The translations under genes were made by a program, and so were the position numbers. A stretch of 36,700 bases of DNA. It comes from a virus. How positions within the stretch are numbered: the first letter of the stretch is position 1; each line of letters begins with the position of its first letter. Where the stretch lies: the IMG/VR virus record IMGVR_UViG_3300021420_000086, positions 1 through 36,700 of that record, one strand, 5' to 3'. Under the pieces are notes generated by a model that was not told where the DNA came from, did not search any database, and saw only the letters and a program-made list of their open reading frames with translations. Shown piece by piece: positions 7,344 through 29,595 of this stretch.

Positions 7344-8066
7344 ATGGACACTTCGACTGTTGTCTCAGTGCAAGCACTTCGTGGCAACGATTCAGTGCAA
7401 GCACAGAACGAGAAGCAAAGAGGCAAGGAAAAGGAAATCCGAACCGAATCCGATTGGCTGCGGGAATCGGCCGCGCGCCATGAACAGAAGGGCGAGACGG
7501 TATGGGCGCTGCTCTATCGCAACGAAGCCATCCGGCTTGAATTTGAGCTGGCACATCCAGGCCGCGCAGCACAATTTCGCGCTGATGAAGCGTTAGATTT
7601 TCACGGGACACGAATCACGAGTCACGAATCACGCGCTTTTCGGCGGCGGGGCGGGGCTGGCCGCGGGATCAAGGTACGCTTCCACCTGCGGCAGAAAGCC
7701 CTTGATATCGTTCACCAGGGATTGATCGAGCGACACGCTGATGCCGTTCGCGCCGGCCGCCGCGCCCGCATCTTTTACCGCGTTGGCCGCCACGCCCCAC
7801 ACGTCCAGCAAGTGCTGCTCAAACGTGGAACTGCCTTTCAGCACCATTTCGCTCATGGCTTCCACCGTAGGCGCCACCTTTTGAATTTCGGCCTGCACCG
7901 CGGGCATGTCGCTCGCGATCTTCGACAATGCGCCCTTCACGGCGCGGCCGACTTTCAGAAACCACGTGCCCGCCCGGGCGTACCACGCGGCGTGCGGCGT
8001 TGCGGGAGTGGGGGACGACGGCGTTGTGGACATTTTTGCTCCTACTTTACCGCCGTGGCCACCTGA
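7344..8066 (+). CDS. Hypothetical protein; real part probably ends near 7600
   Basis: The first 85 or so codons read like a real protein (ESDWLRESAARHEQKGETVW, then ALLYRNEAIRLEFELAHPGR). Then the frame enters a 7-bp repeat tract and runs, without a stop until 8066, antisense through the gene at 7629-8033. The original stop was probably lost when the repeat arose. A 13-base direct repeat (TCAGTGCAAGCAC at 7365 and 7392) gives a repeated SVQA. No clear ribosome site is seen. It is the last rightward early gene and meets the leftward late operon head-on. Confidence 0.45.
   Translation: MDTSTVVSVQALRGNDSVQAQNEKQRGKEKEIRTESDWLRESAARHEQKGETVWALLYRNEAIRLEFELAHPGRAAQFRADEALDFHGTRITSHESRAFRRRGGAGRGIKVRFHLRQKALDIVHQGLIERHADAVRAGRRARIFYRVGRHAPHVQQVLLKRGTAFQHHFAHGFHRRRHLLNFGLHRGHVARDLRQCALHGAADFQKPRARPGVPRGVRRCGSGGRRRCGHFCSYFTAVAT
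7602..7636. repeat. Degenerate 7-bp tandem repeats, tract B
   Basis: The heptamers are CACGGGA, CACGAAT, CACGAGT, CACGAAT and CACGCGC. The tract sits at the junction of the converging early and late operons and overlaps the end of the late gene at 7629. Confidence 0.65.
7629..8033 (-). CDS. Last late gene: hypothetical helical protein
   Basis: A 134-residue protein with a Ser/Thr/Pro-rich start, a helical core (AWYARAGTWFLKVGRAVKGA onward) and an Ala/Pro-rich end. No membrane segment or known domain. It follows the lysis-type genes at the end of the leftward operon. The 3' end runs into a heptamer repeat tract, so its last residues may be variable. Confidence 0.6.
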   Translation of the reverse strand: MSTTPSSPTPATPHAAWYARAGTWFLKVGRAVKGALSKIASDMPAVQAEIQKVAPTVEAMSEMVLKGSSTFEQHLLDVWGVAANAVKDAGAAAGANGISVSLDQSLVNDIKGFLPQVEAYLDPAASPAPPPKSA

Positions 8067-8758
8067 GCGGCGGGCCCGGCGAATTCGCGCAGAAAAGACT
8101 TTATCACGTTCCAGGTGCCGCGCGCGGGCGTCGTTTCCCGGTGGACGAAAGCGGCAATATCCCGGCTGGCCGCGTCCGCATTGCCCGCCACGCCGTCGAC
8201 GTGCGCCAGCGTCTCATGGATGGTCGGATCGGATAAATCTTTTCCCGCCGCTTTCATCGCGGCGGATGCGCCCGCCGAGGTTTGCACGAGGTTCGCAATC
8301 GCCGGGCGCAGCGCGTCGATCGTGGCATCCAGCCTGGCCGTGGTGTCTGCCACGCTTTCCGTGGCCGTGCGCTCGAGCGCCGTGGACGCATCGAGCGAAG
8401 CCGAAACCCGCGGCACGAGGACGTCATTCACAGATTGATCCGTGCGCACGATGGTGATCCGCAGCGCCGCCATCGTCTTATAGGTTTCGAGCGAGGTTTT
8501 GTTCCAGTAGGCGGCCTGTTGATCTGCGGCGGCCGACAATTTATCCTCTGCCGCTGTGGCTCGCGCGATCGCATCCTGCGCATTCTGTAACGCGATGTCC
8601 GCGTCCCGCGCAATCGGTTCGACCTGTTCGCGCGCTTCCTTAAAAAATACGCCCGCTTCGCCTAAAGCAAATGCACCCGCCATGGCCATCACGCCCAGAG
8701 CGGCGTGCTGGAAATTTCTCCACTCATAACCGCGCATGCGCATGTGACGGACTATCAT
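8042..8758 (-). CDS. Membrane-anchored coiled-coil protein
   Basis: About 238 residues. An N-terminal hydrophobic segment (AALGVMAMAGAFALGEAGVF) is followed by about 200 residues of Ala/Asp/Thr-rich helix typical of a long coiled coil, as in methyl-accepting or spanin-like stalks. It lies just after the lysozyme and the tiny membrane proteins, so a spanin-like role in disrupting the envelope is possible. An alternative start is the ATG at 8743. Confidence 0.6.
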   Translation of the reverse strand: MIVRHMRMRGYEWRNFQHAALGVMAMAGAFALGEAGVFFKEAREQVEPIARDADIALQNAQDAIARATAAEDKLSAAADQQAAYWNKTSLETYKTMAALRITIVRTDQSVNDVLVPRVSASLDASTALERTATESVADTTARLDATIDALRPAIANLVQTSAGASAAMKAAGKDLSDPTIHETLAHVDGVAGNADAASRDIAAFVHRETTPARGTWNVIKSFLREFAGPAAQVATAVK

Positions 8759-8766
8759 GGTTTGTT

Positions 8767-8886
8767 TTATCGCTCCGCATGGCAATGAAGTAAGGCCAGG
8801 GCCATCCGATACAAGAGCCACGTTGCAAAGGCCGCAAACGCCGCGCCGGAAATCCCGCGAGATACCGCTTGGAGTTTTTCAATCAT
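8767..8886 (-). CDS. 39-residue single-pass membrane protein
   Basis: It starts at an ATG overlapping the previous stop (ATGA) and has one hydrophobic segment (ISGAAFAAFATWLLYRMALAL) and a short HCHAER tail. Its size and position after the lysozyme fit a holin or antiholin component. That role is inferred from position only. Confidence 0.55.
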   Translation of the reverse strand: MIEKLQAVSRGISGAAFAAFATWLLYRMALALLHCHAER

Positions 8887-9103: not shown

Positions 9104-9106
9104 GAT

Positions 9107-9526
9107 TCAGACCCACACGCCCGTCCGCATTTGCGAAGAGAGCCGTACGGCGCGGTCGCCCACCTGGCGTGCCCATTCGGATTCCCGCATTTCATCCGCG
9201 GCCACTTCCCAATTGCTGTGCAGGCACGCATTCAGAAACGCAGGAAATTTGTCCAAGCCGTTCACGCCCAGATTGAACGCCATGTTCAAAAGCACGCCTT
9301 GCCGCGGTTCATCTAGATTTTCAAACCAAGGGAACCGCTCGGAAAGAGTGCTGCCGATCGCCTGAATATCGGTTTTTAGCAGGTATTCGATTTCATGGCC
9401 ACGGAGTCCCACATCCGTCAGATTGCGCCCGACGCCAATCGTCAACTTTCCGGCAGTGTCCGTGTACGGAAAATTCCGCACGCCTTCATCGCGGCGTAGT
9501 TGGCTGTAAATGTCGGTGGGCGTCAC
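9107..9526 (-). CDS. T4-type lysozyme (endolysin, GH24)
   Basis: A 139-residue muramidase that cuts peptidoglycan at lysis. The catalytic Glu14, Asp23 and Thr29 have the same spacing as Glu11, Asp20 and Thr26 of T4 lysozyme (DEGVRNFPYTDTAGKLTIGVG). ALL-type helices follow, with the conserved LLNMAFNLG and late AVRLSSQMRTGVW blocks. The length is close to the family minimum. There is no signal peptide, so it needs a holin to reach the wall. Confidence 0.92.
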   Translation of the reverse strand: MTPTDIYSQLRRDEGVRNFPYTDTAGKLTIGVGRNLTDVGLRGHEIEYLLKTDIQAIGSTLSERFPWFENLDEPRQGVLLNMAFNLGVNGLDKFPAFLNACLHSNWEVAADEMRESEWARQVGDRAVRLSSQMRTGVWV

Positions 9527-9538
9527 GGCGGGAGACTA

Positions 9539-9964: not shown

Positions 9965-9967
9965 GTT

Positions 9968-10492
9968 CTAATCCAAGAGCGAGAAAAGCACCCATCCGGC
10001 CAGAAGCGTCCCGCCGATCCAAAAAAAATCCGTCATCGATGGATACCCCGTGGCCGCGGGCTGCGGCTCGCCCGCGGCGTTTACGGCGGCGGCGGGCGTT
10101 AAGCCCGGGATCGCGGGCTGCGGCGCGGGCGCGGCCACGCCCATGTAAGCTTCGTAGGCGCCGGAATTGTACGTCGCCCAGGGAGTGAATCCCCCGGCGG
10201 TGGAATAAATTTCGTAGGCGTCATTGGCGTTCGTTTGCGGATCGTAGAGATTATCCGCGGCGAATTCGGGATGCTCTTTGAGGTAAATCTGCCACAGGCC
10301 GTAGGATCCCTGCCCCGCCGGCGTGCCGCCGGATGCGCCCGTTTCGGGATTGTACACGTTGGGATTTCCGGAACTTTCGGCCAGGGCGATGGCCACGGCG
10401 GTTTGCAGGTCCTGGCCATCAAACCCGGCGATCTGCGCGTAGTAGGCAATCTGCGCCGGGGTAAGAATCGTCGCGTTGGGGATGGCGCTCAC
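9968..10492 (-). CDS. Lytic transglycosylase with C-terminal membrane anchor
   Basis: A 174-residue protein starting at a GTG that overlaps the previous stop. Its SLT-type fold shows in AVAIALAESSGNPN, with Glu39 as the likely catalytic acid, and GSYGLWQIY at about 62-70. After a Pro/Ala-rich linker it ends in a hydrophobic helix (DFFWIGGTLLAGWVLFSLLD). The enzyme cleaves peptidoglycan glycan strands. A membrane-anchored transglycosylase recalls P7 of PRD1, a virion membrane protein that opens the cell wall at entry; the match is by architecture only. Confidence 0.82.
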   Translation of the reverse strand: MSAIPNATILTPAQIAYYAQIAGFDGQDLQTAVAIALAESSGNPNVYNPETGASGGTPAGQGSYGLWQIYLKEHPEFAADNLYDPQTNANDAYEIYSTAGGFTPWATYNSGAYEAYMGVAAPAPQPAIPGLTPAAAVNAAGEPQPAATGYPSMTDFFWIGGTLLAGWVLFSLLD

Positions 10493-10929
10493 GCCGTGAC
10501 TCGCTTTTTGAAAATGTGCTTTCCATCGCGGGTATATCCGGCGAATAGCCACCCTGCTTTTTTGTAGCAACATCCCGGATTTGAGGATTTTATTTTTCGG
10601 GAATCGACCATCGTAAAGGCTTCGCCGCCGCCCCATCGTTCAAATGCGAAAGTCTCAGCCTCTAGAATAATGTCACTTGCCAATCTACTGGATTCATTCC
10701 GAAACCACTGGTCATTAAATCCGAGGAGTCCGTCTGCGCGAAACTGTTGCTTGAGCCAAACGAAAAGAACAAGTCCCGCGCTATCTCGCAGCACGATCTT
10801 TTCTCCATTGCCAGCGAACTGCCGAGCTCCGGGCGATTGGCGGGAATAGTGGCGATCTGCGAGGAAAGCCATTTCGGGATCGAAATGGTGCGTGCGGATC
10901 AAACCGTCAGTGAATGGCAGCAACATCAA
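10489..10929 (-). CDS. Possible GNAT/Mom-like DNA-modification protein
   Basis: The protein has 146 residues. It contains ADRHYSR near the N-terminus and NPGCCYKKAGW near the C-terminus, flanking a hydrophobic strand (LVLFVWL). This His-Tyr-Ser-Arg and Asn-Pro-Gly-x-Cys pattern recurs in phage proteins that I associate with the GNAT fold and with Mom, which modifies adenine in phage Mu. The assignment is from memory of the pattern and is tentative. It overlaps both neighbours by ATGA/GTGA. Confidence 0.5.
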   Translation of the reverse strand: MMLLPFTDGLIRTHHFDPEMAFLADRHYSRQSPGARQFAGNGEKIVLRDSAGLVLFVWLKQQFRADGLLGFNDQWFRNESSRLASDIILEAETFAFERWGGGEAFTMVDSRKIKSSNPGCCYKKAGWLFAGYTRDGKHIFKKRVTA

Positions 10930-14499: not shown

Positions 14500-17406
14500 T
14501 CAATTCAGGCCAAGCTGTTCCACGGTTACGCTGATGTCGTACGTAGGCGTGTTGGCGATCGTGGTTTGGTACTGGATCGCCGTGGCATTCTGCGCACGGA
14601 AGGTTACATCCTGGCTGGTATTGCTGGCCGCGCCCAGCGTGGTGCATGTGGCCGCCGTGCCAGTCACCGTCTGCGCCGTTCCGGAGGTATCCGTATAGAG
14701 CACTGCGGGCGTCACCGTCGCCGCCGCAGAACTTGTGGTGCATTCCACGGAAAGATGCACGCGGAAAAACGTAGTTTGCCCGCCCACGGTGAAGATTGTT
14801 TTGGCGGTTTGCGCCGCAGCCTTGGCCACCTGGCGATCCGATCCTACCGTCTGCGGGTTTACATTTAGAACGATCGTGGATGGTGCAATCGCTGATGATC
14901 CGGCAGTGATGGCTGTGCCTGCCTGTACGTTCACGGTCCCAGTGCCGTTGAAAGCGTTGTTTGTCGTGCCGCTGGGAGTGACTGTAGTATTTTGCAGGGT
15001 AGCAACAGAAGTTCCCGCCATCGTGAACGCACCGTTACCAGACCCGCAATTTACCGCCGTTATCGAATCGCCGTAGCCGTTGAACTTTGACGCTGTTGCT
15101 AAATTGATCGTCGTTCCTATATTTTCGCCGTAGGAATTGAAAATGACGGCACTACCGTTTCCGATTGGCAATCCCTGCCCACATCCGCCGGATTGACCGT
15201 AGCTCCCTCCATAAGAGTTGACTGTGCCTGCCCCTGTGATCACCATGCCTTGGTTGGAATCTCCGCAAAACATCTGGTACATATTCGTCGGTTGACCGCC
15301 AGCGGTGAGAGCCATGCAGGGCTGTCCGCAAAAATCGGACTGGATGTTGATATAAACCGAAGTGGAACCCAACTGATCGCAAAGAAGATTCGTGCGGTTC
15401 GGGCAAAGATTATTTGTATAGACGTTCGTTGCCAGATAGGACTGATTACTGAGATTCAAGAGCGTAGCGGCTGAGCCAGGGCAATTCGTATTTTCGCCAG
15501 ACCCGTCCACTACGAAATCATGGGTGTAGGGTTGAGCCACGAAGCTGTTACTACTGGAAAAACCGAAGAGTTGCGTATGATTCGCTCCAACGGATACCGC
15601 CGTCCACGAATAATCCGCAGTGATGGCGAGCGCGCTGCTAGACGGCCCGCATCCCGCGATGGTGGGAATGTAGGTGGAATGCGAGGGCGATCCGCCGCCG
15701 ATTCCGGCGTCGATTAAAGAAAGGCCGCAGGGGATTTTCAGAAAAGCCGGGCCGCTGGTAAGCGCCAAGACAAAGGCATTCCATGCGTTCTGCCAGGGGC
15801 CTGTTCCCGCCGAAGTTTGATCCACATCGCCCCAGACGAGCCGCGCCGTGGCCGTGCAGTTGTTCGCGGCATTATTGCTTACGTGGATTTGGTTCGCGCT
15901 GTCGATGCTGGTGATCGTGGTGCTGGCCGGGATGATATAAGAGCCGGCGGTACAAGATTGAAACCCTTTATTTGCAAACACGCGCTGTCCGATCACAGCC
16001 GTGGTCGTGAAATTGCAATCCGAATTTGGGCAGGTGACAATTGGGCTGCCGCTCGTGGTGGTGGCATCGGATACCGCATGCCCATCGGCTTTCACGCCAA
16101 ACGTGCGAGGATCAATTACGGCCACATCTTCCCCGCAATAATTGGTCGTGGTGACGCTATTCACTACGAAGTAAAGGCAGCCATTTGTTAAAATTCCGGA
16201 AAGTTTCTGGGTCGAATTCACGATGTCCAGCATGTTGGCCGTGGTGGATGCGTTCAGATTTCCGATCGTCACGGGAACTTGGCTAGTTGTGTTGGGATTC
16301 TGGATGAGCGAGATTCCCATTCCTCCGGGCACGGACGCGGCACCGTATACGGATGGATTTCCGTCGAAGGTGATCGCATCGTAAACCCCGCTGCTATCGC
16401 CCACCGCGTTTCCGCCAGTGATTTCAGCGATGCCGTTATCAGGTACGAAGAATTGCATCGTCGAAGTCCTGCTGCCCGATGACGCCGCCTGTTTATTGGT
16501 GATGATCAGCGCATCGTTGGCCGTCGCGGAGCTTTCCTGCTGAATTGCCATGACGGTGGTGCTGCCGCCCGGATTGAACGCACCATAGCCCTTGCCTTCG
16601 ACTAGCAATGGAGCGGCCAGCGTTCCGGTTCCGGCGCCTCCGGTGCTTTGATTGTTGACGTCGATCAATGGGATCGATTGCGTCGAGGAATGGGAATTTA
16701 CCTGCAGTGGATTGGTCGTGTCCGCACCGGCCGTAAGCGCGATCGCGCCGGTTGATCCCGTCACGGCGCTGCCGGCGATGTCCGAAAGCGTGTTTGCCGC
16801 GCTGGCATACGGAATGTGGGTCGAAGTGATCGTGCCCGCGATCGTGGCGCCGCTTACGTTGCACGTGGGGCAGGAAATCGTGCCCGTCGCAGTGATTGGG
16901 TTGGGCGTCACTACAATGGGGGACGAAGCCGCCACGCTGGTGACGCTTCCGGTGCCCGTCCCGGAGAAGTTCGTCAGCTTAGGTGCTAACGCATTCAGTG
17001 CGGACGTGAGGCTTACGGGCGAACTGCCGCTGATTGTGGTGCCGGAGCTCGTGTAGGTGAATTGCTGGGAGCCTGTCCCGAACGGCAGCGGGATGCCCGG
17101 CGCGATCGATACCGTGATCTGCCACTGCGGGCTGCCCGGACTGATCAGCGTCACATCGCCAAACTGCGCCGTAAATTTGCCCGTAGAATCGAGCGTCACG
17201 GGGCCGACTTTTCCGGAATAGGGCTGGCCGTTCAGCGTGTAGCTGCCGGTACCGCCCATCAGCACAGCATTCAGCACGGCACCAGAATACGGGATGCCGT
17301 TGGGATCCTGCACCGTGGCCGTGACAGTGGTGAACTGCGCGCGAGCGGCGGGCGCAAAAAGAAACGCCCCGGCAAGTACCAGGGCGACACTGAGAATTTT
17401 TCGCAT
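14500..17406 (-). CDS. Very large exported spike-like protein with beta-helix region
   Basis: The protein has 968 residues. It starts at ATG 17406 with a signal peptide (MRKILSVALVLAGAFLFAP, AARAQ). An Ig-like or carboxypeptidase-regulatory-like domain follows (VTATVQDPNGIPYSGAV). A long Ser/Thr/Gly-rich body comes next, then a pectate-lyase-like start (VDPRTFGVKADGHAVSD) and beta-helix-like repeats with many Cys. The C-terminus reads as an adhesin head. Function is likely receptor binding or depolymerisation. No catalytic residues were identified. Confidence 0.75.
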   Translation of the reverse strand: MRKILSVALVLAGAFLFAPAARAQFTTVTATVQDPNGIPYSGAVLNAVLMGGTGSYTLNGQPYSGKVGPVTLDSTGKFTAQFGDVTLISPGSPQWQITVSIAPGIPLPFGTGSQQFTYTSSGTTISGSSPVSLTSALNALAPKLTNFSGTGTGSVTSVAASSPIVVTPNPITATGTISCPTCNVSGATIAGTITSTHIPYASAANTLSDIAGSAVTGSTGAIALTAGADTTNPLQVNSHSSTQSIPLIDVNNQSTGGAGTGTLAAPLLVEGKGYGAFNPGGSTTVMAIQQESSATANDALIITNKQAASSGSRTSTMQFFVPDNGIAEITGGNAVGDSSGVYDAITFDGNPSVYGAASVPGGMGISLIQNPNTTSQVPVTIGNLNASTTANMLDIVNSTQKLSGILTNGCLYFVVNSVTTTNYCGEDVAVIDPRTFGVKADGHAVSDATTTSGSPIVTCPNSDCNFTTTAVIGQRVFANKGFQSCTAGSYIIPASTTITSIDSANQIHVSNNAANNCTATARLVWGDVDQTSAGTGPWQNAWNAFVLALTSGPAFLKIPCGLSLIDAGIGGGSPSHSTYIPTIAGCGPSSSALAITADYSWTAVSVGANHTQLFGFSSSNSFVAQPYTHDFVVDGSGENTNCPGSAATLLNLSNQSYLATNVYTNNLCPNRTNLLCDQLGSTSVYINIQSDFCGQPCMALTAGGQPTNMYQMFCGDSNQGMVITGAGTVNSYGGSYGQSGGCGQGLPIGNGSAVIFNSYGENIGTTINLATASKFNGYGDSITAVNCGSGNGAFTMAGTSVATLQNTTVTPSGTTNNAFNGTGTVNVQAGTAITAGSSAIAPSTIVLNVNPQTVGSDRQVAKAAAQTAKTIFTVGGQTTFFRVHLSVECTTSSAAATVTPAVLYTDTSGTAQTVTGTAATCTTLGAASNTSQDVTFRAQNATAIQYQTTIANTPTYDISVTVEQLGLN

Positions 17407-17480
17407 CTTTTTTCTCCGACGCACTCGATGTGCGTCCCCTTCCCTTCCCTGCCGCGCCATAGCCGCAGGCGACGGCGGGC

Positions 17481-19433: not shown

Positions 19434-19439
19434 GCCTTT

Positions 19440-21730: not shown

Positions 21731-22210
21731 CTAACTTACGTATTTCGAGTACACGCGCTTCGGTCCAAGCATGCCCATCGCGGCCGCGGCGGCTGTCGTG
21801 CCGTTGCCCTTCGATGGTCCAGTCTTGGAAGCGGACGCGGCGATCGCCGGTGCGCCAGCCGAATATGCGGGCGTCGGGATCGTGAAGTTGAGCGGTCCGT
21901 ACTGGCCGAGCGAAGCCGTAAGCAGCGTCTTGCCCGTGACGATGGTAATCGCCCGGGAAACGGCCTGCACCGATCCGCCGATCAGCACGCCTTCCGAAAG
22001 GTCTTCGGACATTCCTTTCAAAAGGTACGCGCCGCCGAACGCCACGACGAGGGCCAGTCCCACGCCTGCCCAGCCCGTATTCATCGACGGGCTGACCATG
22101 TTGGGAATGGCGGAAGCGGCTACCGCACCGCCGAGCGCGCCGGCCACCTTCACCGCAAGTTTGTTGATGCTGCCCGCGGCAAAGGGATTGCGCCTTCTGT
22201 GATGTGCCAT
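21731..22210 (-). CDS. Virion membrane protein candidate
   Basis: The protein has 159 residues. It opens with MAHHRRRNPFAAG, a basic stretch followed by Asn-Pro, then two hydrophobic segments (AGALGGAVAASAIPNMV; GWAGVGLALVVAFGGAYLL) and a third weaker one. The C-terminal 50 residues are Ala/Gly/Ser-rich and disordered. The ATG at 22210 has a GGAGGA ribosome site. It is just upstream of the candidate major capsid gene, as membrane proteins are in tailless membrane phages. The longer frame up to 22297 is not needed. Confidence 0.65.
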   Translation of the reverse strand: MAHHRRRNPFAAGSINKLAVKVAGALGGAVAASAIPNMVSPSMNTGWAGVGLALVVAFGGAYLLKGMSEDLSEGVLIGGSVQAVSRAITIVTGKTLLTASLGQYGPLNFTIPTPAYSAGAPAIAASASKTGPSKGNGTTAAAAAMGMLGPKRVYSKYVS

Positions 22211-22293
22211 AAATCCTCCTTCCCCGCCGTGATTTTCCTTGCGGACGCGATGACGCCGGCGAGCGTCATACGTCGGATTGACGAGCCGGACGA

Positions 22294-23025
22294 TCATATT
22301 TGTCCGACTCCCAAATTCACGCGCGGCGCGACGGATGGATCGCTGCGCACCGCGTTCAGATCCATTTGATCGCCCAGGTCGTACCGGCCGCCCTTGAAAA
22401 ACATTTCGCCGGTATAGGGATCGACGAGGAGCGCCATCTTGGTCCCGTCAAAGCTCGAGAGCGACGAAATCGGCATCTTGTAGCTGCCGAGCGCGCCCCA
22501 GGTGGCCCCGCGCCCCGCCGTCACGCACACGATCTGCGCCACGGGATGAAAGATCAGGAAATTCAAAAACCGCGCCGAAGCGATTTCTTCCAAACGCTGC
22601 GTCAGCTTCGGCGCTTCGCGTTCTTTTTCGCCCTCGGGCAGGTGCGATTGCCCGTGCTGGTCGACGAGGTAGGGATTCTGCTCCGGGCGTTCCGCATCCG
22701 GAACATCGGGGAGCCACGCCAGACCCTTGCGCAGCGGCAGCCGCGACGCGATCAAAAGATCGCCTTCGGGGATGGAGCGCGCAATCGACGGCCCGCCTTC
22801 CGGCCAGTAGATGCGGCGGCCCACTTTCGCCGCCTTGTGCAGCGGCATCCGGCAATCGGCGTCCGGCTCAAAATAAATCGTTTCGATCATGCCAAACACG
22901 TTGTAGCCGCGCCCGGGCCCGGCGGCGATGCGTTCGCGCTTAATCTTCAAGGAAAATTCCAGGTCCTTGGCAGCGCCGCGCACCAGATTTTCCTTGCTGA
23001 TTCCGTGATCCGTTCCCGCCAGCAT
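22294..23025 (-). CDS. Hypothetical structural-region protein
   Basis: A 243-residue soluble protein with an alpha/beta mix. It has ERIAAGPGRGYNVFGMIETI at residues 30-50, a Pro/Glu-rich middle and a C-terminal beta part ending SVAPRVNLGVGQI. AGRGATWGALGSYK is glycine-rich but is not a clean Walker A. GAAGA... no known fold is recognised. It sits between the 258-residue protein and the membrane protein of the capsid block. The SD AAGAGGAAAAG precedes the ATG. Confidence 0.6.
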   Translation of the reverse strand: MLAGTDHGISKENLVRGAAKDLEFSLKIKRERIAAGPGRGYNVFGMIETIYFEPDADCRMPLHKAAKVGRRIYWPEGGPSIARSIPEGDLLIASRLPLRKGLAWLPDVPDAERPEQNPYLVDQHGQSHLPEGEKEREAPKLTQRLEEIASARFLNFLIFHPVAQIVCVTAGRGATWGALGSYKMPISSLSSFDGTKMALLVDPYTGEMFFKGGRYDLGDQMDLNAVRSDPSVAPRVNLGVGQI

Positions 23026-23135: not shown

Positions 23136-23912
23136 CTAGTTCACGATTCCTTCCGGTTCGATGGTGTATTCCCCGCCCGCCAGAAACAGCCGCCCTTGCG
23201 GCCCGCGGCGATCGTACATGAGCCGGGGACGGCGGCCCGTGACGTCGCCAAACTTGTGCTCATAATCCGAAGCGATGCCGTCGACGTGCATCTTTTTCGC
23301 GCGATAGGCGATGGCCATGCACTCGCCCAGGTCCAGCATTTCTTTCGAGTTGTCCACGCCCAGATGCGTCAACTGGCCGCGCGTGATTTTTTGATCGCCG
23401 CCCACGAAATAAATCTGGGAGTGGCCCACGTTCCCGACGGCCTGCACGCCCTTGCCCGTGAAATCGAGGATGCCCCACTTCCATCCGCCGTCGCGCTTCA
23501 CCTGCAGTTCCACCAGCACGCCAAGCTGGCCAAGGTTCGCGGGCCGCGGTTCGGGCTCGATGTAGGTGTCCACATGCTTGCCCGGCTCGCCGTGAAACTC
23601 TTCGTAAACTTGGGAAGCGCCCGCGAGGCCGCTGGAAGGATTGGCAATCGTCTGACGTATCGTTCCCTCTTGTTGCAATCGCCCAGCATTTTTCGCTGAA
23701 TGGAAAGCCTCGCTTTTGGATTTATGCCAATTCCTTCCACCATCGAAACTGTAATAGCGTTTACCGAATGAAGTCTTATACTCAAAAATATATCGCTTGG
23801 CCCCATGAGTGGCCCTCCCTACATAAGAGGGATTCCCGCCCATCAGGACGAGCTCTGACGGGTTGGCGCTCATCAGCACCAGTTCCGCCGGGTTTTTCTT
23901 TCGTGCTCGCAT
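23136..23912 (-). CDS. Conserved mobile-element protein of unknown role
   Basis: The protein has 258 residues. The N-terminus repeats NP.ELVLM (NPAELVLMSA, NPSELVLMGG, NP), a motif seen at the start of several phage proteins. The body (YEEFHGEPGKHVDTY, LGQLGVLVELQVKR, SQIYFVGGDQKI, YEHKFGDVTG) resembles a conserved uncharacterised family I have seen in bacterial mobile elements. The residues 32-66 segment (RYIFEYKTSFGKRYYSFD...) looks inserted. It lies in the structural block, upstream of the capsid genes. Confidence 0.65.
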   Translation of the reverse strand: MRARKKNPAELVLMSANPSELVLMGGNPSYVGRATHGAKRYIFEYKTSFGKRYYSFDGGRNWHKSKSEAFHSAKNAGRLQQEGTIRQTIANPSSGLAGASQVYEEFHGEPGKHVDTYIEPEPRPANLGQLGVLVELQVKRDGGWKWGILDFTGKGVQAVGNVGHSQIYFVGGDQKITRGQLTHLGVDNSKEMLDLGECMAIAYRAKKMHVDGIASDYEHKFGDVTGRRPRLMYDRRGPQGRLFLAGGEYTIEPEGIVN

Positions 23913-23955: not shown

Positions 23956-23957
23956 GT

Positions 23958-24236
23958 TTAGGCTGACGCCGCCTTTTCGTGCTCGCCGCGCGCCTTCACC
24001 TGTTCCGGCGGGAACGCGATCGTCTGGCAGTGCTTCAAGTGCCCTTGCTTGTAGACCTGCACGTCCACCAGATTTTTCTGCGTCTGCACGGAGCGCACCA
24101 CGCCTTCCATTTCCTCGCCCAGTACGGGCACGAGTACTGCATCGCCCGGCTGAAAATCTGTCGCTTCCATAATTTTTTTCTCCTTGTGCGGCGCATGCGC
24201 CGCTGGATGATGCGATTTTCCCGAATGTGAAGTCAT
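23958..24236 (-). CDS. Small SH3-like (KOW-type) protein
   Basis: The ORF encodes 92 residues, with a strong AAGGAG ribosome site before an internal ATG at 24170, so the made protein may be 70 residues. Then TDFQPGDAVLVPVLGEEMEG and VVRSVQTQKNLVDVQV suggest a small beta-barrel. The 24236 start overlaps the previous stop (ATGA) and would add a His-rich tail. It may bind nucleic acid or act as an assembly adaptor. Confidence 0.6.
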   Translation of the reverse strand: MTSHSGKSHHPAAHAPHKEKKIMEATDFQPGDAVLVPVLGEEMEGVVRSVQTQKNLVDVQVYKQGHLKHCQTIAFPPEQVKARGEHEKAASA

Positions 24237-25033
24237 CGGCGTTTTCCTGTGAAATTGTTCAGCAAAACCAAAGCCCCGACCGCCGCGGCGATGTAGATCG
24301 CGTTATTCTCAAACCACGTGAGCGGATCGGTGGCCGCCGCGGCCACGGTGCCCGCCGGCGTTGACGGCGTGGAAATCAGCGCGATCTGGTTCGTGGTCAA
24401 GTTGCCGCTGCCGATCACGCTTTGGACGATGGTCACCACGATGGATTGCGCGTCGGTGAGCAGCGCGAAGCCCACGCCCGTAACGGCGATCGTGGCGGTG
24501 AATCCCGCCGTGCCCACGCCCAGAAGCGACGATCCGGTGGAATTGAAACTCAAAAGCTGCATTCCGGATGCCGTCAATTTAGAACTGAGCGCGGCTTGCA
24601 CGTCGGAAACGGAGCCGTGGATCGGGGACCATCCGCCGGTGTAAGAAAATTGGCTGCCGGTGGGAAGCTGTCCAACGGGCGCCGCCGGCGTGGCCGCATA
24701 TCCCGGCGTCGCTACTGGAGTTGGAGTTGCCGAGGGTGTGTTGGCGGTGGCCGTCGACGCCGGCGGAATCGTCACGCCGTACTGCGCGTACAGTTGCGAG
24801 AGCGTTACGTTTCCGTTGATCAGGTTCGTCAAATCCTGATCCGTGGCGCCCAGGGAATTCAAAAGATCGATGTCGCTCGTGGAAATTCCCGCGTCGACGG
24901 CGGCGTTTTCCATCGAGGGCGAAAAAGATCCCAGCGTCGATCCTGGATGGTATCCGAGCAGAGCGTGCGCGCCGGGCTGGTACCCCATGCCCGGGCGAAG
25001 TTCTTCAAATGCGGGATGGTTAGGGAAAATCAT
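24233..25033 (-). CDS. Virion membrane protein with GYQPGAHALLG motif
   Basis: The protein has 266 residues. Residues 16-27 are GYQPGAHALLGY, shared with the protein at 25880 (GYQPGAHALLGM). A Pro/Thr/Ala-rich linker leads to a beta-rich region and then a C-terminal membrane helix (NNAIYIAAAVGALVLLNNF) with GKRR at the very end. The ATG overlaps the previous stop. The same layout recurs in its neighbours, so this is a paralogous family. Confidence 0.68.
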   Translation of the reverse strand: MIFPNHPAFEELRPGMGYQPGAHALLGYHPGSTLGSFSPSMENAAVDAGISTSDIDLLNSLGATDQDLTNLINGNVTLSQLYAQYGVTIPPASTATANTPSATPTPVATPGYAATPAAPVGQLPTGSQFSYTGGWSPIHGSVSDVQAALSSKLTASGMQLLSFNSTGSSLLGVGTAGFTATIAVTGVGFALLTDAQSIVVTIVQSVIGSGNLTTNQIALISTPSTPAGTVAAAATDPLTWFENNAIYIAAAVGALVLLNNFTGKRR

Positions 25034-25671
25034 CGCCGTTTTTTCCTTCCGCCCATCAGCCAAGCTAGAGCAATCACGCCGCCGGCAAGTAGCGCGCCAT
25101 TCGGCACGCCGGCCCAGTACGTCTGCGCCGAAAGCCACGTCTCGAATTCAGAGAAAACGTCCGTCGTGGGTGCCGCGCTCGTAGCGGCAGCCGCGGCGGG
25201 CTGCGCCTGCGCGATTTGGGCCGCCGTGGGCGCGGGCGTGCCGGAAATCAGATCGCCCTGCGCGGCAAGCGCCGAGCCTTGCGTCGTGAGTTGATTTCCG
25301 CCCGTCAAAAGCGAGCCCGATTGATACAGCGTTTGCGCGTCCGGGGTGAGATACCCGGAATAGGAAATCCCCGTCACGGGATCGATGATGTTCGTTAGCT
25401 CCACGGGCAGCCCGCCCGGCGATCCGGACGTGGAAACGGTTTCGCCCGTCACGGCGATGGGGCCTTGCACCTGCACGGGAAGCTGTTCCGGCGGGACCGT
25501 AGTTTGCATCGGCAAAAGAACGGGCGCGGGAAACGGCTGCGGCGGCGCGCTCGTGGGCGCAGCGGATGACGATGGCGCCACGTAGGGCGTGGCCACGGAG
25601 CGAATCACCGGCGCCGGCTGAATCGATCGCGCCGTCGCGGCTCCCAGCCGAGGATCGTTGACGGCGATCAT
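25030..25671 (-). CDS. Virion membrane protein with basic C-terminal tail
   Basis: The protein has 213 residues. It starts at ATG 25671, which overlaps the previous stop. It has a long Pro/Ala/Ser-rich linker, a Gln/Ala/Thr region and a C-terminal block WLSAQTYWAGVPNGALLAGG, VIALAWLMGG, RKKRR. The C-terminal block matches the proteins at 25880 and 26884 (Trp-[Leu/Met]-x..., Pro-Asn, hydrophobic, basic). One membrane pass is predicted with the basic tail inside. Confidence 0.65.
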   Translation of the reverse strand: MIAVNDPRLGAATARSIQPAPVIRSVATPYVAPSSSAAPTSAPPQPFPAPVLLPMQTTVPPEQLPVQVQGPIAVTGETVSTSGSPGGLPVELTNIIDPVTGISYSGYLTPDAQTLYQSGSLLTGGNQLTTQGSALAAQGDLISGTPAPTAAQIAQAQPAAAAATSAAPTTDVFSEFETWLSAQTYWAGVPNGALLAGGVIALAWLMGGRKKRR

Positions 25672-25883
25672 CGGTAATCGATTCCCTTCCGCCATTTGCT
25701 CTGATCGAAGCATTTTTCGCACGCGCTCTCTAAAACATTCCCCGGAAGCCAACGATACCTTCGGTGAATCACGAGGCACAGGTAGAATTTCAAAGTTGAG
25801 AAATCCCACCAGAATTTAAGCCGATACCGCCAGCGCCCTATCGCTCCCACTTTCGGAACTTCTGACAGTTTGGCGTCGATCAT
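25668..25883 (-). CDS. Small basic aromatic protein
   Basis: A 71-residue protein coupled by ATGA to both neighbours. It is rich in Lys, Arg, Trp and Tyr (GRWRYRLKFWWDFSTLKFYL), with a possible weak membrane-surface segment. It may anchor to a membrane or DNA. A longer frame upstream exists but the coupled start is preferred. Confidence 0.55.
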   Translation of the reverse strand: MIDAKLSEVPKVGAIGRWRYRLKFWWDFSTLKFYLCLVIHRRYRWLPGNVLESACEKCFDQSKWRKGIDYR

Positions 25884-26653
25884 CGGCGCCTCTTTTTTCC
25901 GGACATGAGCGATGGAAGCGCGATCAGCGCCACAACGCCGATTCCGAGCACAGCCATATTCGGGATGCCCGGAAACAAAGTGGAGCCGGACATCCACGAC
26001 GTGAGCGAAGAAATCGCGCCGGAAATTCCCGTTGCGGGCGGCGCGGCGTAAAGATTTCCGCCGGCCAGAAGCGCTTGGCCCTGCGCCGTCAGTTTCCCCG
26101 CGGCATTCACCAGTTGCCCTGCGGCTTGCAGCGCCTGCGCGGCCGTCGTGAGGTTATTCGTGTTGATCGTGGACGTCGCGCCGGTATTCGGATCGGTGAT
26201 GTTTATGTTCTGTCCCGTGGCCGTCGTATCCACCGCCGCCGTGGCCGCGCCCGTGGTGGCCGCGGTAACTTGCTCCGCGATCGAGTACGGCACCAGCTGC
26301 CCCGTTTGAATGTTCGTATAGTTGCCATCGCCGTTGCTGGTGAATTCCGTGCCCACGCTCGAGGGATACATCGATTCAAGCGCCGGCGAAAGTTGATTCG
26401 GCAGAGGCAAGGCGCTCGGATCGGACGTGGAAAAAATCGGCGGCGTGAGATCGATGATCGGCGAAACGGATGAAGTATCCGGCGGAACGAGGCTGCCGGG
26501 ATCCGTGGACGTGGTATCGATCACCACGGGATCGTCGCCCAGCATGCCGAGCAGCGCGTGCGCGCCCGGCTGATAGCCGCGCATGCCACAACATCGCTCG
26601 CCCGTCGAAGTAACGGTGAGTCCGGGAAGCGGAGAATCCAGTTGCGCGTACAT
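25880..26653 (-). CDS. Virion membrane protein with GYQPGAHALLG motif
   Basis: The protein has 257 residues. It contains RGYQPGAHALLGM near residue 25, a disordered Thr/Ser/Pro/Asp-rich middle, a helical Ala/Gln-rich region (TAAQALQAAGQLVNAAGKL) and a C-terminal block WMSGSTLFPGIPNMAVLGIG, VVALIALPSLMSG, KKRRR. The C-terminal block is close to that of the proteins at 25030 and 26884. The stop of the preceding gene directly abuts this ATG. Confidence 0.68.
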   Translation of the reverse strand: MYAQLDSPLPGLTVTSTGERCCGMRGYQPGAHALLGMLGDDPVVIDTTSTDPGSLVPPDTSSVSPIIDLTPPIFSTSDPSALPLPNQLSPALESMYPSSVGTEFTSNGDGNYTNIQTGQLVPYSIAEQVTAATTGAATAAVDTTATGQNINITDPNTGATSTINTNNLTTAAQALQAAGQLVNAAGKLTAQGQALLAGGNLYAAPPATGISGAISSLTSWMSGSTLFPGIPNMAVLGIGVVALIALPSLMSGKKRRR

Positions 26654-26887
26654 CTATTTGCACACCTCGGGCTGATGAAGCGCCGCAACGCCAGGTGAAC
26701 TGGCGCCAATGGAATGAGAAACGTAGACGATATTTCCACGCGGCCCGTCACAGTAAACGCGCAGGATGCAGCAGTCTGTCCCTTCCAAATCCGTTTGGTC
26801 GACTAGCCGGATCGTTGGGGACCATGCTTTTGCGGCCCACGTGAAAAGCAAAAGAAAGATCACGGCCATCAGGACGGGGCGGATCAT
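26654..26887 (-). CDS. Small exported or membrane-anchored Cys protein
   Basis: A 77-residue protein starting at an ATGA overlap. Residues 1-22 (MIRPVLMAVIFLLLFTWAAK, AW) are a signal peptide or anchor. The outside part has Cys-Cys and a later Cys plus one at the end, which could form disulfides. It is flanked by virion membrane protein genes. Confidence 0.62.
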   Translation of the reverse strand: MIRPVLMAVIFLLLFTWAAKAWSPTIRLVDQTDLEGTDCCILRVYCDGPRGNIVYVSHSIGASSPGVAALHQPEVCK

Positions 26888-27216
26888 CGGCGTCCCCCGA
26901 AAACCTTGGCCGCGAGTAGCGCGCCGCCGAGGATCACGAAAATCGAATTCGGCATCCCCGGCAGAAGCGACGATTGCCCCATCCACGTAAGCATCTGATC
27001 GAAAATGCTGGTTTGCGTGGGCGTGGTGGCCGTACTGATGGCGAACTGCCCGCCGGGACCAAAGGAAATATTCGTCAACGGCGTGTCGCCGAGGCCGCGA
27101 AAGTTCGGGCTGATGCCGTTTTTGTTGCGCGTGGAAAGCAGGCCGTACGCGCCGAGTCCACGGAAATTCGGATTCAGCCCGTTGCCGTTTTTCGTGGATA
27201 GGCGCGCGTAAGCCAT
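26884..27216 (-). CDS. Virion membrane protein with doubled FRGLG repeat
   Basis: The protein has 110 residues. The N-terminus holds two copies of a unit, LSTKNGNGLNPNFRGLG and LSTRNKNGISPNFRGLG. The protein at 27258 has a third copy (LSTRNANGLRPGFRGLG). The C-terminus is WMGQSSLLPGMPNSIFVILG, GALLAAKVFGG, RR, matching the family. The shared start suggests exchange or duplication among the genes. Function is unknown. Confidence 0.68.
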   Translation of the reverse strand: MAYARLSTKNGNGLNPNFRGLGAYGLLSTRNKNGISPNFRGLGDTPLTNISFGPGGQFAISTATTPTQTSIFDQMLTWMGQSSLLPGMPNSIFVILGGALLAAKVFGGRR

Positions 27217-27223
27217 TTTTCAG

Positions 27224-27254
27224 TGACTCGTGACTTGTGACTCGTGACCCGTGA
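27224..27254. repeat. Degenerate 7-bp tandem repeats, tract D
   Basis: Four heptamers, TGACTCG, TGACTTG, TGACTCG, TGACCCG, then TGA. The tract lies in the short gap between two virion membrane protein genes. Tract B has the same unit on the opposite strand (CACGAGT). Confidence 0.7.
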
Positions 27255-27257
27255 AAA

Positions 27258-28187
27258 TCATCCCGCCACCATCCAGGCGCCGGCGGCCGCGAGCGCGATC
27301 CAGCCCCATGCGGGAATCTGTGAAAAAATATTTGCAGGCACAGGCACGCCGCCCACAACTTCCGGAACAGTGGAGCCGCCCTGCGAACTCGTGGCGCTGG
27401 TGGCCGCGGCCTGCTCTGCCGCGGTGGCCGCCGCGGCTTGGAATTGCCCCTGCCAGTAATAGACCATCCCCAGGACGATGATCCCTAATTCGCAATTCGA
27501 GTTGCAGTACGGCGAATCGTTGATCGCCGTGCCGCCGCTGGGAATCGATGTGGGGCCATTCTGCCCGCCCGATGCGCCGCCCGCGCTCATATACTGCGAA
27601 TAAATTTCCTGCAGGGAGTTGGCCGCATCCGAGGGCAGAATATTTCCGTCCTGCACGCCCTTGATGATCACGGCCATCGCGTTGTTTACCGCGGGGATCG
27701 CGGAGCAGCCGAACTGTAAATCGCGCGCCACGGCCTGCGCGTGGTGCCGGAAAATCGCTTCGATCAGGCCGATAATCGCGCCGATGCCGGCCACGATCCA
27801 TCCCACGATCGGCACGGCCGCCGCAGGGATCAGCGCCACGGAACTGCTGGCCAGCACGCCGGTGGTAGCCGTCGCAGTGCTCAGCGCCATGCCGCTGGCC
27901 GTGGCCAAAAGATTCATGGGCTGCGCGGTTTGCCCCGCGCAATTCGGGCCGAGGCCGCCGGTCACGTCGATCGCGGCGCTTGAGATTGCCGCTTCCGCCG
28001 CGGTGAACCACGCGCTCGTGGGCGCAAGGATATTCGGATTCACATGGAAATTGGAATACGCCTTGATCGCTGCGTTCAAGGCGTCGGTGGGAGAAAGTGG
28101 AGTGGACGCATCACCCAGGAAGCCGAGGCCTCGGAATCCGGGGCGGAGTCCGTTAGCGTTTCGCGTGGATAGGAGTGCGTAGCTCAT
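27258..28187 (-). CDS. Multi-pass virion membrane protein candidate
   Basis: The protein has 309 residues. It begins SYALLSTRNANGLRPGFRGL G, sharing the repeat of the gene at 26884. Two long hydrophobic stretches in the middle (residues about 120-160, ALIPAAAVPIVGWIVAGIGA, IIGLIEAIF) form a hairpin, then paired Cys (CNSNC), an Ala/Gln helix and a C-terminal hydrophobic segment (PAWGWIALAAAGAWMVAG). It is the largest of the membrane proteins and could make a pore or conduit. Confidence 0.65.
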   Translation of the reverse strand: MSYALLSTRNANGLRPGFRGLGFLGDASTPLSPTDALNAAIKAYSNFHVNPNILAPTSAWFTAAEAAISSAAIDVTGGLGPNCAGQTAQPMNLLATASGMALSTATATTGVLASSSVALIPAAAVPIVGWIVAGIGAIIGLIEAIFRHHAQAVARDLQFGCSAIPAVNNAMAVIIKGVQDGNILPSDAANSLQEIYSQYMSAGGASGGQNGPTSIPSGGTAINDSPYCNSNCELGIIVLGMVYYWQGQFQAAAATAAEQAAATSATSSQGGSTVPEVVGGVPVPANIFSQIPAWGWIALAAAGAWMVAG

Positions 28188-28189
28188 TT

Positions 28190-28762
28190 TCAATATTCCG
28201 GCACTCGCAAAAGCCCATTCAGGAAAACGCACAGTTTCGATGGTGCAGTGCGATTCTCCCAACGGGCCATGCACCAATCCGTAAAACTCGCTTCCACTTT
28301 AAAATATTCTTGTTGGCGGATTTCGACCGGCGTTTGAAGTTTCGATTCAGCGCGGAGCTCGTCAAAATCTTCTTTGGAAAGCAGGGCTTCTTTTTCCATG
28401 TTGATGATCGAAGCCATCGCTGCGCATTTCGCGATTGGGCCTTGCCACTTCAACTTCGATCCGACAAAGACGGCAAGCGTGGATTCGGCATACCAGCGAG
28501 ATTTCGCGGGGATGATTCCTTCATCGTCCACGAAATAGCATTCGATCCCCTCAATCACAAATGATTGAAGGGCTGGCAACATCGCCGGCTGAACGATATT
28601 CGTATCGTTTTCCGTTTTTACGTGTATGCCATATTTGAGCAAAACTTGTTGGCCCTGCGGATAGACGAATCCTGTGCAATGATTCCCGGCGAGACTTGAT
28701 GGCAAGTAAATCGTGTCGAACTGCGGTTGGCAGATTTCTTGCATTTGAATTTGTTGTGGCAT
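28190..28762 (-). CDS. Capsid-like beta protein, paralogue of 20884
   Basis: The protein has 190 residues. Start of fold: FDTIYLPSSLAGNHCTGFVY, PQGQQ; then TNIVQPAMLPALQSFVIEGI, EC, and a last strand LCVFLNGLLRVPEY. The VQP..L.A...F.I.GI.C block matches SMVQPNQLQAPERMLVRGIT C in the candidate capsid protein at 20884. The two may be the vertex and facet subunits of one capsid. Its start overlaps the previous stop (TAATG). Confidence 0.62.
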   Translation of the reverse strand: MPQQIQMQEICQPQFDTIYLPSSLAGNHCTGFVYPQGQQVLLKYGIHVKTENDTNIVQPAMLPALQSFVIEGIECYFVDDEGIIPAKSRWYAESTLAVFVGSKLKWQGPIAKCAAMASIINMEKEALLSKEDFDELRAESKLQTPVEIRQQEYFKVEASFTDWCMARWENRTAPSKLCVFLNGLLRVPEY

Positions 28763-29595
28763 TATTCGCTCGCGAGCCACCAGATGCTGCCAATCACCGC
28801 GGCAAGGAAAAGCAATTCCCCGGCGGGCGTCGATAGGAACGAAGCCGCTTGCGGTACTGCCATCGCGGCGCCGCCCGGGCCGATCGCGGGCTGTACGACG
28901 GGCTGCACCGATTGCCCGCCCACGGATTTGAGCGCCCCGCTCGCGTCCGTCAAAATCGCGGCCACATCTGAAGTGACGCTGCCGAGCCCGCGCAGCGTTT
29001 GCGGGCGATACCCGGCCATCGTGCCCGAAGCGTCGCCGGGATAATCCTCGTGGGAATCGTCGGTCAGGCTCCACCACATGCGACGGTAAAAACGATCCGG
29101 GGCCACGCCGATCACGGCGCCGGGGCGCGCGGCGTCCAGGGGATACCATTCGCCGTCAATGAACACTTCGCAGTAGACGTGCGAAAAATAATCCGGCATG
29201 CGCGGATCGCTCGCCACCGTCACGAGCCGCGTTTCAAATCCGATGGTGCCCAGGAGCGCGGGCAGGACGTTGGCGTTGATATCGTCACAGTCGCCGGCTT
29301 TCAGTTTCAAAAGCTCGCGCGTGGGGCGCACGGCTTCCTTGGTGATGGGATCGTTTACAAAATAAAACGAGCGCGCGTAATCGTAGATCGCGGCGATTTG
29401 CGCCTGCGAATCGTGCGGCTGCGCGCCGGCGTTGCGGATGATTTCGATGGCCGTGCGGTTGACGAAGGGGTCTTTCCAGGCGTCATCCACCAAACTGCGG
29501 AGCACCGCGACGGTTTGCGCCGTGCCATCGTCGCCGCCCATCAGCGGCGCGGCAAATAAAAGCCCGGAAGAATCGCCGAGTGGAAAAATTCCCAT
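28762..29595 (-). CDS. Transglutaminase-like cysteine protein with membrane anchor
   Basis: The protein has 277 residues from ATG 29595 (29604 is an alternative). Cys103 in KLKAGDCDDINA, His139 in YFSHVYCEVF and Asp154 in WYPLDAARPGA form the Cys-His-Asp triad of the transglutaminase-like (papain-like) fold. Such proteins act as cysteine peptidases or amidases. A linker with AGYRPQTLRGLG leads to a C-terminal hydrophobic helix (ELLFLAAVIGSIWWLA). It is the first gene of the late operon and could be a maturation protease or wall-opening enzyme. Confidence 0.75.
   Translation of the reverse strand: MGIFPLGDSSGLLFAAPLMGGDDGTAQTVAVLRSLVDDAWKDPFVNRTAIEIIRNAGAQPHDSQAQIAAIYDYARSFYFVNDPITKEAVRPTRELLKLKAGDCDDINANVLPALLGTIGFETRLVTVASDPRMPDYFSHVYCEVFIDGEWYPLDAARPGAVIGVAPDRFYRRMWWSLTDDSHEDYPGDASGTMAGYRPQTLRGLGSVTSDVAAILTDASGALKSVGGQSVQPVVQPAIGPGGAAMAVPQAASFLSTPAGELLFLAAVIGSIWWLASE

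Follow-up and report, generated by a model that had tools for sequence, protein, structure and literature searches.

Only a handful of phages with single-jelly-roll capsid proteins have been characterised, and these stem from hot or salty habitats. The known tailless, membrane-containing phage SSIP-1 has been an orphan, with a genome that hardly resembles anything in GenBank (PMC6356626), and the realm Singelaviria has recently been split from Varidnaviria (PMC12714852). The whole stretch of DNA analysed here, hereafter the window (IMG/VR record IMGVR_UViG_3300021420_000086, 36,700 nt), is a complete circular (or circularly permuted) virus genome of ~36 kb. With a probability of about 0.83, it belongs to an icosahedral phage that has no tail, contains an internal membrane, builds its capsid from single-jelly-roll proteins and is broadly of the SSIP-1 type, because a jelly-roll model, capsid fold matches and a match to the SSIP-1 protein gp34 all point in this direction.

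Ten close relatives of 34.1-37.5 kb have the same circular gene order as the window with permuted starts, and nine of them carry exact end repeats of 77-127 nt. Beyond this group, 14 distant viral contigs encode homologues of the 20884 product (genes are named by their first coordinate in Table 1). The 12 distant contigs examined measure 41-62 kb and include seven that carry exact repeats of 97-127 nt at their ends; all 12 keep the order transglutaminase (28762), 23136, 20884, 20136 and 18646, single members falling below threshold in some contigs. Altogether, 25 viral contigs (the window and 24 others), mostly of 34-62 kb, have the virion gene set in common; G014 and G015, found via the transglutaminase and clearly significant for that gene alone, were left out. 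Most proteins have no match to anything. No provirus or host was found when GTDB genomes were searched with the capsid family, and a collection of 50,697 phage records, queried by tblastn with ATPase, capsid and distant proteins, yielded no useful match.

Table 1. Features of the window, with strand and supporting evidence.
Coordinates	Strand	Feature	Evidence
2271..4499	+	P-loop ATPase, 742 aa, possible packaging motor	Walker A GQTQLSGKTT, Walker B VIVPEAQDF
9107..9526	-	phage lysozyme, endolysin candidate	PF00959 E 1.2e-7, assigned from sequence; 5/10 relatives
9968..10636	-	SLT transglycosylase, hydrophobic C-terminus	PF01464 E 3.2e-7; PHROG 3874 E 0.0023
14500..17460	-	spike or fibre candidate, 986 aa, hydrophobic 21-39	10/10 relatives
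17481..18638	-	late protein, 385 aa, adjoins spike candidate	10/10 relatives, 48-62%
18646..19359	-	conserved capsid/vertex candidate, 237 aa	10/10 relatives; 12/12 examined distant contigs
19440..19943	-	third candidate capsid protein, 167 aa	10/10 relatives, 60-92%; paralogue of 20136
20136..20696	-	second candidate capsid protein, ~161-186 aa	10/10 relatives; most distant contigs
20884..21648	-	candidate major capsid protein, 254 aa, single jelly roll	conservation, homologue model, fold matches
21731..22297	-	membrane protein just before capsid gene, 188 aa	10/10 relatives
22294..23025	-	conserved late protein, 243 aa	10/10 relatives, 62-86%; pN/pS 0.33
23136..23912	-	conserved late protein, 258 aa	E 1e-10 to 1e-28 in 12 distant contigs
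24233..28190	-	five proteins (24233, 25030, 25880, 26884, 27258), hydrophobic C-terminus	all in 10/10 relatives
28762..29652	-	transglutaminase-like protein, C-terminal membrane anchor, late block's first gene	PF01841 E 1.8e-8
29905..31236	+	conserved protein, 443 aa, transcribed divergently from transglutaminase gene	10/10 relatives, 46-69%
32990..34531	+	DnaB-like replicative helicase	PF00772 E 9.7e-24, AAA_25 E 3.8e-26, phrog_19

The hallmarks of tailed phages are absent by profile search. Terminase, portal, sheath, tail tube and tape measure, which the preliminary description had already missed among the reading frames, do not appear in the complete Pfam listing of the 56 window proteins at a cut-off of E 0.01, and neither does an HK97 capsid. 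Among the best 25 of 41 families, the PHROG scan of the window gave none of these genes either. The profile searches for terminase and portal that it had called for, run over whole genomes with controls that gave signal, agree: the portal model PF04860 and the terminase models PF03237 and PF03354 each match 0 of 20 genomes, SSIP-1 among them, although PF03354 misses lambda and the diversity of terminases is only partly covered by either model. If this were a member of the Caudoviricetes, with terminase, portal, capsid and tail genes too divergent to be recognised, most proteins would likewise match nothing, and two tail-labelled PHROGs lend this reading something, namely a label with a tail function among the best 25 of 41 families for the window, probably that of the lysozyme, and one named tape measure (phrog_2276) among the best 25 of 79 for the complete distant genome G012. 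Such a tailed phage is nevertheless improbable, given that a recognisable terminase and portal are missing from close and distant genomes alike, and that the single-jelly-roll model, the excess of membrane proteins and the link to SSIP-1 described below all speak against it.

The late minus-strand genes form a block (7629-29652) that is truly coding: the core genes tested have pN/pS values of 0.16-0.50, as opposed to 0.98-1.23 for two overlapping antisense ORFs. The many membrane proteins reported earlier for this structural block are likewise borne out as an excess, since under a strict rule 13 of 32 late proteins contain a hydrophobic segment, compared with 1 of 20 lambda structural proteins; SSIP-1, at 7 of 20, shows a similar excess. 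This lends indirect support to a predicted tailless icosahedral virion with a membrane inside. The run at 24233-28190 consists, judging from its sequences, of candidate internal-membrane proteins, and homologues of the 21731 product occupy the same position in G016, G021 and G025. The domain of 23136 recurs within longer proteins in distant relatives, always encoded between the transglutaminase and capsid genes. In the 14500-17460 protein the N-terminus is conserved and the rest variable, the best-aligned part lying within the first 160-300 residues, and its neighbour at 17481-18638 has a hydrophobic segment near the N-terminus. Beyond the transglutaminase end of the block, a large divergent ORF takes the place equivalent to 29905-31236 in G012, G013 and G025, homology to it being undetected.

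The first gene of the block connects the window to a described phage, SSIP-1, with which part of the virion module is shared. Its transglutaminase-like product, found in 10/10 close relatives and 13/14 distant contigs, matches gp34 of SSIP-1, annotated as a structural protein (E 5.4e-17; hhalign 98%), and this is its sole match among the ORFs of lambda, P23-77, PRD1, SH1 and SSIP-1; a gp34-type transglutaminase-like virion protein, an SSIP-1-like trait, is thus present in the window. The membrane-anchored transglycosylase of the preliminary description was recovered as the SLT match at 9968-10636, present in 4/10 close relatives, and is likely an entry enzyme. If the beta-rich late genes instead made a structure that is secreted or displayed on the cell surface, the window could be a plasmid-like or otherwise mobile element; this would fit the circular genome, the N-terminal signal-like segments on several late proteins and a Pfam listing of window proteins that contains no integrase. 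Such an element is hardly credible in view of the lysozyme, the transglycosylase, the virion protein held in common with SSIP-1 and the capsid-like fold matches.

The capsid candidates lie side by side in the block. Of the late proteins tested, the 20884 product is under the strongest constraint (pN/pS 0.16, 83-96% identity in nine relatives), and its window family is joined to the distant family by profile-profile comparison (E 8e-11). AF2 gave no usable fold for the window protein itself from six near-identical sequences (pLDDT 27); from 19 diverse sequences it modelled a distant homologue of ~200 aa, ~30% identical to the window protein, at medium confidence (pLDDT 69, pTM 0.66) as an all-beta single jelly roll with eight main strands. 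Among the best solved structures on the VIA fold list of this model are the capsid proteins of SPV1 (Z 7.8, rmsd 3.5, 134 aligned), HHIV-2 (Z 6.6), SH1 (Z 6.5) and HCIV-1 (Z 6.4), Z values below 8 being able to mirror a common arrangement, and the top BFVD match is I1ZBH9 (E 1.2e-4, prob 1.00). At 211 aa, I1ZBH9 is like SSIP-1 gp46 in length. The single-jelly-roll fold, a trait of Singelaviria/Helvetiavirae, is thus found for 20884 through its distant homologue at medium confidence; the family resembles single-jelly-roll proteins and not HK97, the fold that had been named beforehand as evidence to the contrary, and the 20884 product is the candidate main capsid protein.

As regards the trait of two major capsid proteins, 20884 is accompanied by the paralogues 20136 and 19440 (hhalign 97%, E 4e-10) and by the weakly VP16-like 18646. 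The conserved part of 20136 begins near 20621, the gene directly follows 20884 in most distant contigs, and its family is linked weakly, by profile comparison, to gp47 of SSIP-1 (E 8e-4). The 18646 family weakly matches the small capsid protein VP16 of P23-77 over 44 residues (hhalign 66%, E 5.6e-5); its 10.7 bits compare with 7.9 for the best of 2000 shuffles. The ORF called at 28190-29149, whose 5' part overlaps the transglutaminase gene and which is likely a gene of 28190-28768, was rejected as a core capsid protein, as it is variable and present in 3/10 close relatives at E 1e-3. Fold evidence was gained for one of the at least five jelly rolls first proposed, 20884, via its homologue.

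Gene content of the internal-membrane kind, a membrane-anchored transglycosylase and a P-loop ATPase could also belong to a member of the Bamfordvirae with double jelly rolls, as in PRD1/PM2, and the double-jelly-roll proteins of PBCV-1 and STIV do occur further down the fold list. However, the 20884 homologue has ~200 aa and eight main strands (a different window protein could be double), the best capsid fold matches are single-jelly-roll proteins, the genome is far larger than that of PRD1 or PM2, and gp34 points to SSIP-1, so that this alternative is very improbable. The new, large tailless membrane phage lineage initially suggested survives in terms of the missing terminase and portal, the jelly-roll model and the gp34 link; of the PRD1, PM2 and sphaerolipo types cited at first, the window looks to be on the single-jelly-roll (SSIP-1/Sphaerolipoviridae) side and not on that of PRD1/PM2.

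The ATPase is the weakest piece of evidence for a tailless membrane phage. Its HerA-like motifs lie in the N-terminal half, followed by a variable linker and a C-terminal part. The HerA/FtsK type previously assigned to it holds for the Walker motifs and not for family membership: there is no Pfam family, PDB sequence or DUF87/HerA match, whereas the same search does connect the packaging ATPases of SH1 and P23-77 with DUF87 (E 1e-4), and the HerA-like identity of the window ATPase is accordingly a putative one, drawn from motifs only. When compared by hhalign with the ATPases of SH1, P23-77, PRD1, lambda and SSIP-1, it resembles that of P23-77 alone, at Walker B, both on visual inspection and in an alignment that is shallow and very weak (E 0.019). 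In three of its homologues the surroundings of Walker B, and no other part, also give a weak match to a 'terminase' PHROG (E 0.009-0.03). With somewhat less than even odds, the ATPase serves replication, segregation or transcription, and another enzyme packages the DNA or the capsid assembles round condensed DNA; this is a variant of the SSIP-1-type reading and does not exclude it. The gene sits among early plus-strand genes, no homologue was found in the 12 distant relatives or SSIP-1, the HerA protein of the distant relative G017 has no detectable similarity to it and lies outside the virion block, and the annotated SSIP-1 ATPase gp40 looks RecA-like by sequence. In favour of a motor are the Walker B likeness to the P23-77 packaging ATPase and the strong conservation of the N-terminal domain, the first 360 aa being 86-96% identical in eight relatives.

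In the working that we infer for a tailless, membrane-containing phage, from its lipid and particle shape to the role of each late protein and any ATP-driven packaging, plus-strand early genes would replicate the DNA, with the DnaB-like helicase, and modify it, and minus-strand late genes would build the virion. The main protein of the shell would be the 20884 product, with the paralogues 20136 and 19440 serving in the shell or at its vertices and 18646 doing likewise; 21731 and the C-terminally anchored 24233-28190 proteins would lie in the membrane beneath the shell. The transglutaminase-like protein may be a membrane-anchored virion component, acting as a protease or cross-linker, the transglycosylase would open the cell wall at entry, 14500-17460 and its neighbours might form spikes, and the 2271-4499 ATPase perhaps pumps DNA in.

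Taken together, the window, its close relatives and the 14 distant contigs may constitute a new single-jelly-roll lineage of order level or higher, outside hot and salty habitats, with SSIP-1 as its first known relative, a transglutaminase-like virion enzyme as its hallmark and capsids filled without the conserved HerA/FtsK packaging ATPase that is characteristic of other single-jelly-roll viruses, a proposal that we hold tentatively, at just under an even chance. The 25 viral contigs with their common virion gene set would make the orphan SSIP-1 part of a lineage, supplying sequence diversity for structure work and bearing on the Singelaviria/Varidnaviria split (PMC12714852). They would also show that surveys based on known capsid and terminase profiles miss these viruses: no PHROG matches the capsid candidates. 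As a packaging ATPase common to the group is apparently lacking, how the DNA is packaged becomes a testable question.

When compared with known systems, the window shares with PRD1 and PM2 the general logic of membrane proteins, lytic enzymes and a P-loop ATPase, but its capsid candidate has one barrel's worth of strands, its genome is two to four times larger and it has no profile matches to PRD1 ORFs. Among solved structures, the fold list is headed by the capsid protein of SPV1 (Portogloboviridae), although no sequence similarity was seen; SPV1 has an archaeal host and a gene content unlike that of the window. Sphaerolipoviridae/Matshushitaviridae (SH1, HHIV-2, HCIV-1 and P23-77; realm Singelaviria) contribute other best-matching single-jelly-roll capsids, the VP16 of P23-77 and a virion block with small membrane proteins and lytic enzymes, but differ in genomes of 17-31 kb, in a HerA/FtsK packaging ATPase that lies near the capsid genes and is recognised by DUF87, and in having no clear sequence homology to the window. 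SSIP-1 differs in its annotated integrase and sigma factor and in capsid candidates, ATPase and replication genes without clear sequence similarity to those of the window, the gp47 link being weak; direct comparison of 20884 with gp45/gp46 was not significant, and a scan of IMG/VR with gp46 found SSIP-1 itself alone. The likenesses to SSIP-1 are these: a circular dsDNA of similar size (44 kb), no terminase match there either, gp34 with a C-terminal hydrophobic segment, a hydrophobic gp44 followed by structural gp45-48 of 130-256 aa, which parallels 21731 by position only, and the transglycosylase-like gp54, whose C-terminal hydrophobic segment gives it the same layout as the window protein at 9968-10636.

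The window, 36,700 bases long, spans an entire virus record in IMG/VR, and its genome is circular or circularly permuted, and complete, because its relatives carry end repeats, start at permuted points and share a common circular order. Ten such relatives (34.1-37.5 kb) were retrieved by the protein of 20884, the candidate major capsid gene, and then again by the ATPase; exact end repeats, 77-127 nt long, occur in nine of them, and the order of core genes is identical in all ten, save for two similar adjacent genes ambiguously assigned in one contig. The ends of the window itself overlap imperfectly, and the differing copies are strain variation at the circular junction. Among other repeats, a perfect 78-nt tandem duplication looks very recent; a GC-rich hairpin (GGCCCCGGTAAGGGGC core) occurs in three almost identical copies of 33 nt, possibly as shared terminators or a protein-binding site; and two far-apart, mostly intergenic pairs of simple inverted repeats, of the types ACTCTCAACT and GTGACTCGTGACT, may be host-type repeats, useful for host finding.

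Purifying selection is evident in the minus-strand late genes tested (pN/pS 0.16-0.50), whereas two long antisense ORFs gave 0.98 and 1.23. The product of 20884 has the lowest ratio tested (0.16) and is the most conserved late protein (83-96%), which fits the expectation for the main shell protein; the shell would be composed of this product and the further capsid candidates, of which 20136 and 19440 are paralogues (hhalign 97%). A profile search with the transglutaminase-like protein (28762) uncovered a distant pair of contigs, G012 (61.5 kb, with an exact 97-nt end repeat) and G013 (44.5 kb), both encoding homologues of 18646, 20136, 20884, 23136 and 28762 in the order of the window, and their capsid proteins in turn retrieved twelve further contigs. 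In profile-profile comparison the window and distant capsid families match at E 8e-11, and the transglutaminase-like protein is encoded in 13 of the 14 distant contigs. In the twelve whose full length was read, the genes transglutaminase, 23136, (21731, a membrane protein), 20884, 20136, 18646 keep this order wherever they could be detected, although single members score below threshold in some contigs; exact end repeats, 97-127 nt long, occur in seven of the twelve. A GTDB search found the capsid family in no genome. Two other contigs, G014 and G015 (L075-L081; 42 and 66 kb), in which a transglutaminase-like protein has small membrane proteins and a further hydrophobic one as neighbours, are possibly a further, more distant branch.

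Features of the window and of two distant contigs
Feature	Coordinates	Strand	Remarks
Left end copy	1-498		94-99% identity to right end copy; indel ~258 nt
Right end copy	35,945-36,700		~258 nt longer; extra small ORF at 36216-36473
Hairpin copies	234-266, 5394-5426, 23924-23956
ATPase	2271-4499	+
Tandem duplication	4473-4628		spans ATPase gene end and start of next ORF
DNA methylases, early region	6120-6821, 32127-33041		N4/N6 and cytosine-C5 types (Pfam tally); outside gene set common to at least 3 relatives
Inverted repeats, first pair	19372-19434, 35328-35387
Inverted repeats, second pair	7596-7632, 27223-27259
Transglycosylase	9968-10636	-
Glycosyltransferase-like, late block	11144-12043		DSDAVI motif (by eye); 9/10 relatives
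Fibre-like late proteins	13485-14492, 14500-17460, 17481-18638		N-terminal signal-like hydrophobic segments
Candidate major capsid protein	20884-21648	-
Transglutaminase-like	28762-29652	-
G012 protein (L068)	7691-11865		similar N-terminal hydrophobic segment (by eye)
G017 (L115-L118) HerA/DUF87 ATPase	47154-48635		E 1.2e-11; outside virion block

The preliminary description had reported no large terminase, portal or tail genes and, within model coverage, these hallmarks of tailed phages are indeed absent. The Pfam listing of the 56 window proteins, complete at E 0.01, comprises DnaB-type helicase, DNA methylases, lysozyme, transglycosylase, transglutaminase core, ASCH domain and few others; families of terminase, portal, capsid and tail proteins are all missing from it. 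The profile searches it had suggested, run as whole-genome scans with Terminase_6N and Phage_portal (controls positive), found nothing in any of 20 genomes, the distant ones and the membrane-containing phage SSIP-1 included; a second terminase model, of partial coverage since it misses lambda, gave no match either. The PHROG tally of the window covers the best 25 of 41 families, the main late proteins being additionally scanned one by one. The proposed HerA/FtsK type of the ATPase is based on two motifs, a Walker A (GQTQLSGKTT) whose spacing exceeds the classic one by a single residue, and a Walker B (VIVPEAQDF) resembling VVDEAHQFFP of P23-77; searches of Pfam, PDB and DUF87 gave no match in its favour. 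The protein is conserved within the close group, and the distant contigs and SSIP-1 yielded no homologue. DNA packaging would be driven by a motor, and the chances that this ATPase is the one that packages the DNA are about even. The distant contig G017 encodes a true HerA ATPase, with a helical and winged-helix-like tail and no detectable similarity to that of the window.

By one rule, a membrane-like segment occurs in 13 of 32 window late proteins, compared with 7/20 in the SSIP-1 virion region and 1/20 in that of lambda. Such a predicted content speaks for an internal membrane but falls short of demonstrating one; the virion would contain lipid. Three of the 13 segments are N-terminal and signal-like, on fibre-like proteins, an unusual trait in the spikes of a phage that points to export or to anchoring in a membrane.

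The fold was modelled on the G013 homologue of 20884, with 19 diverse sequences, rather than on the window protein, and shows an all-beta core of eight main strands and a helix (pLDDT 69, pTM 0.66). After re-alignment, the capsid protein of SPV1 leads the PDB matches of this model (Z 7.8, rmsd 3.5, 134 residues); second comes a tail-fibre domain from a phage, and ranks 3-5 are taken by the HHIV-2, SH1 and HCIV-1 capsid proteins (Z 6.4-6.6). Values of Z below 8 may reflect an arrangement that is merely common, and beta sandwiches of unrelated proteins come next at Z 6. The best BFVD match, I1ZBH9 (E 1.2e-4, TM 0.58), has 211 residues, the length of SSIP-1 gp46; that the two are the same protein is no more than conjecture. 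The model and the PDB and BFVD matches jointly make a single jelly roll likely but not proven for the 20884 family.

The transglutaminase family profile, built from the window group and the distant contigs, matches the SSIP-1 structural protein gp34 (E 5.4e-17) and no other ORF in lambda (first 20.5 kb), P23-77, PRD1, SH1 or SSIP-1. Weaker links join the 20136 family to SSIP-1 gp47 (E 8e-4) and the 18646 family to P23-77 VP16 (E 5.6e-5 over 44 residues, beating the best of 2000 shuffles). None of the open-licence papers searched was found to describe the lineage. Both gp34 and its window counterpart end in a hydrophobic segment; in SSIP-1, the hydrophobic gp44 precedes several small structural proteins in a row (gp45-48), and gp54 is transglycosylase-like with a hydrophobic end, the window transglycosylase being the enzyme that would serve cell entry. 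The window phage is probably a new form of single-jelly-roll membrane phage, with SSIP-1 as its nearest characterised relative.
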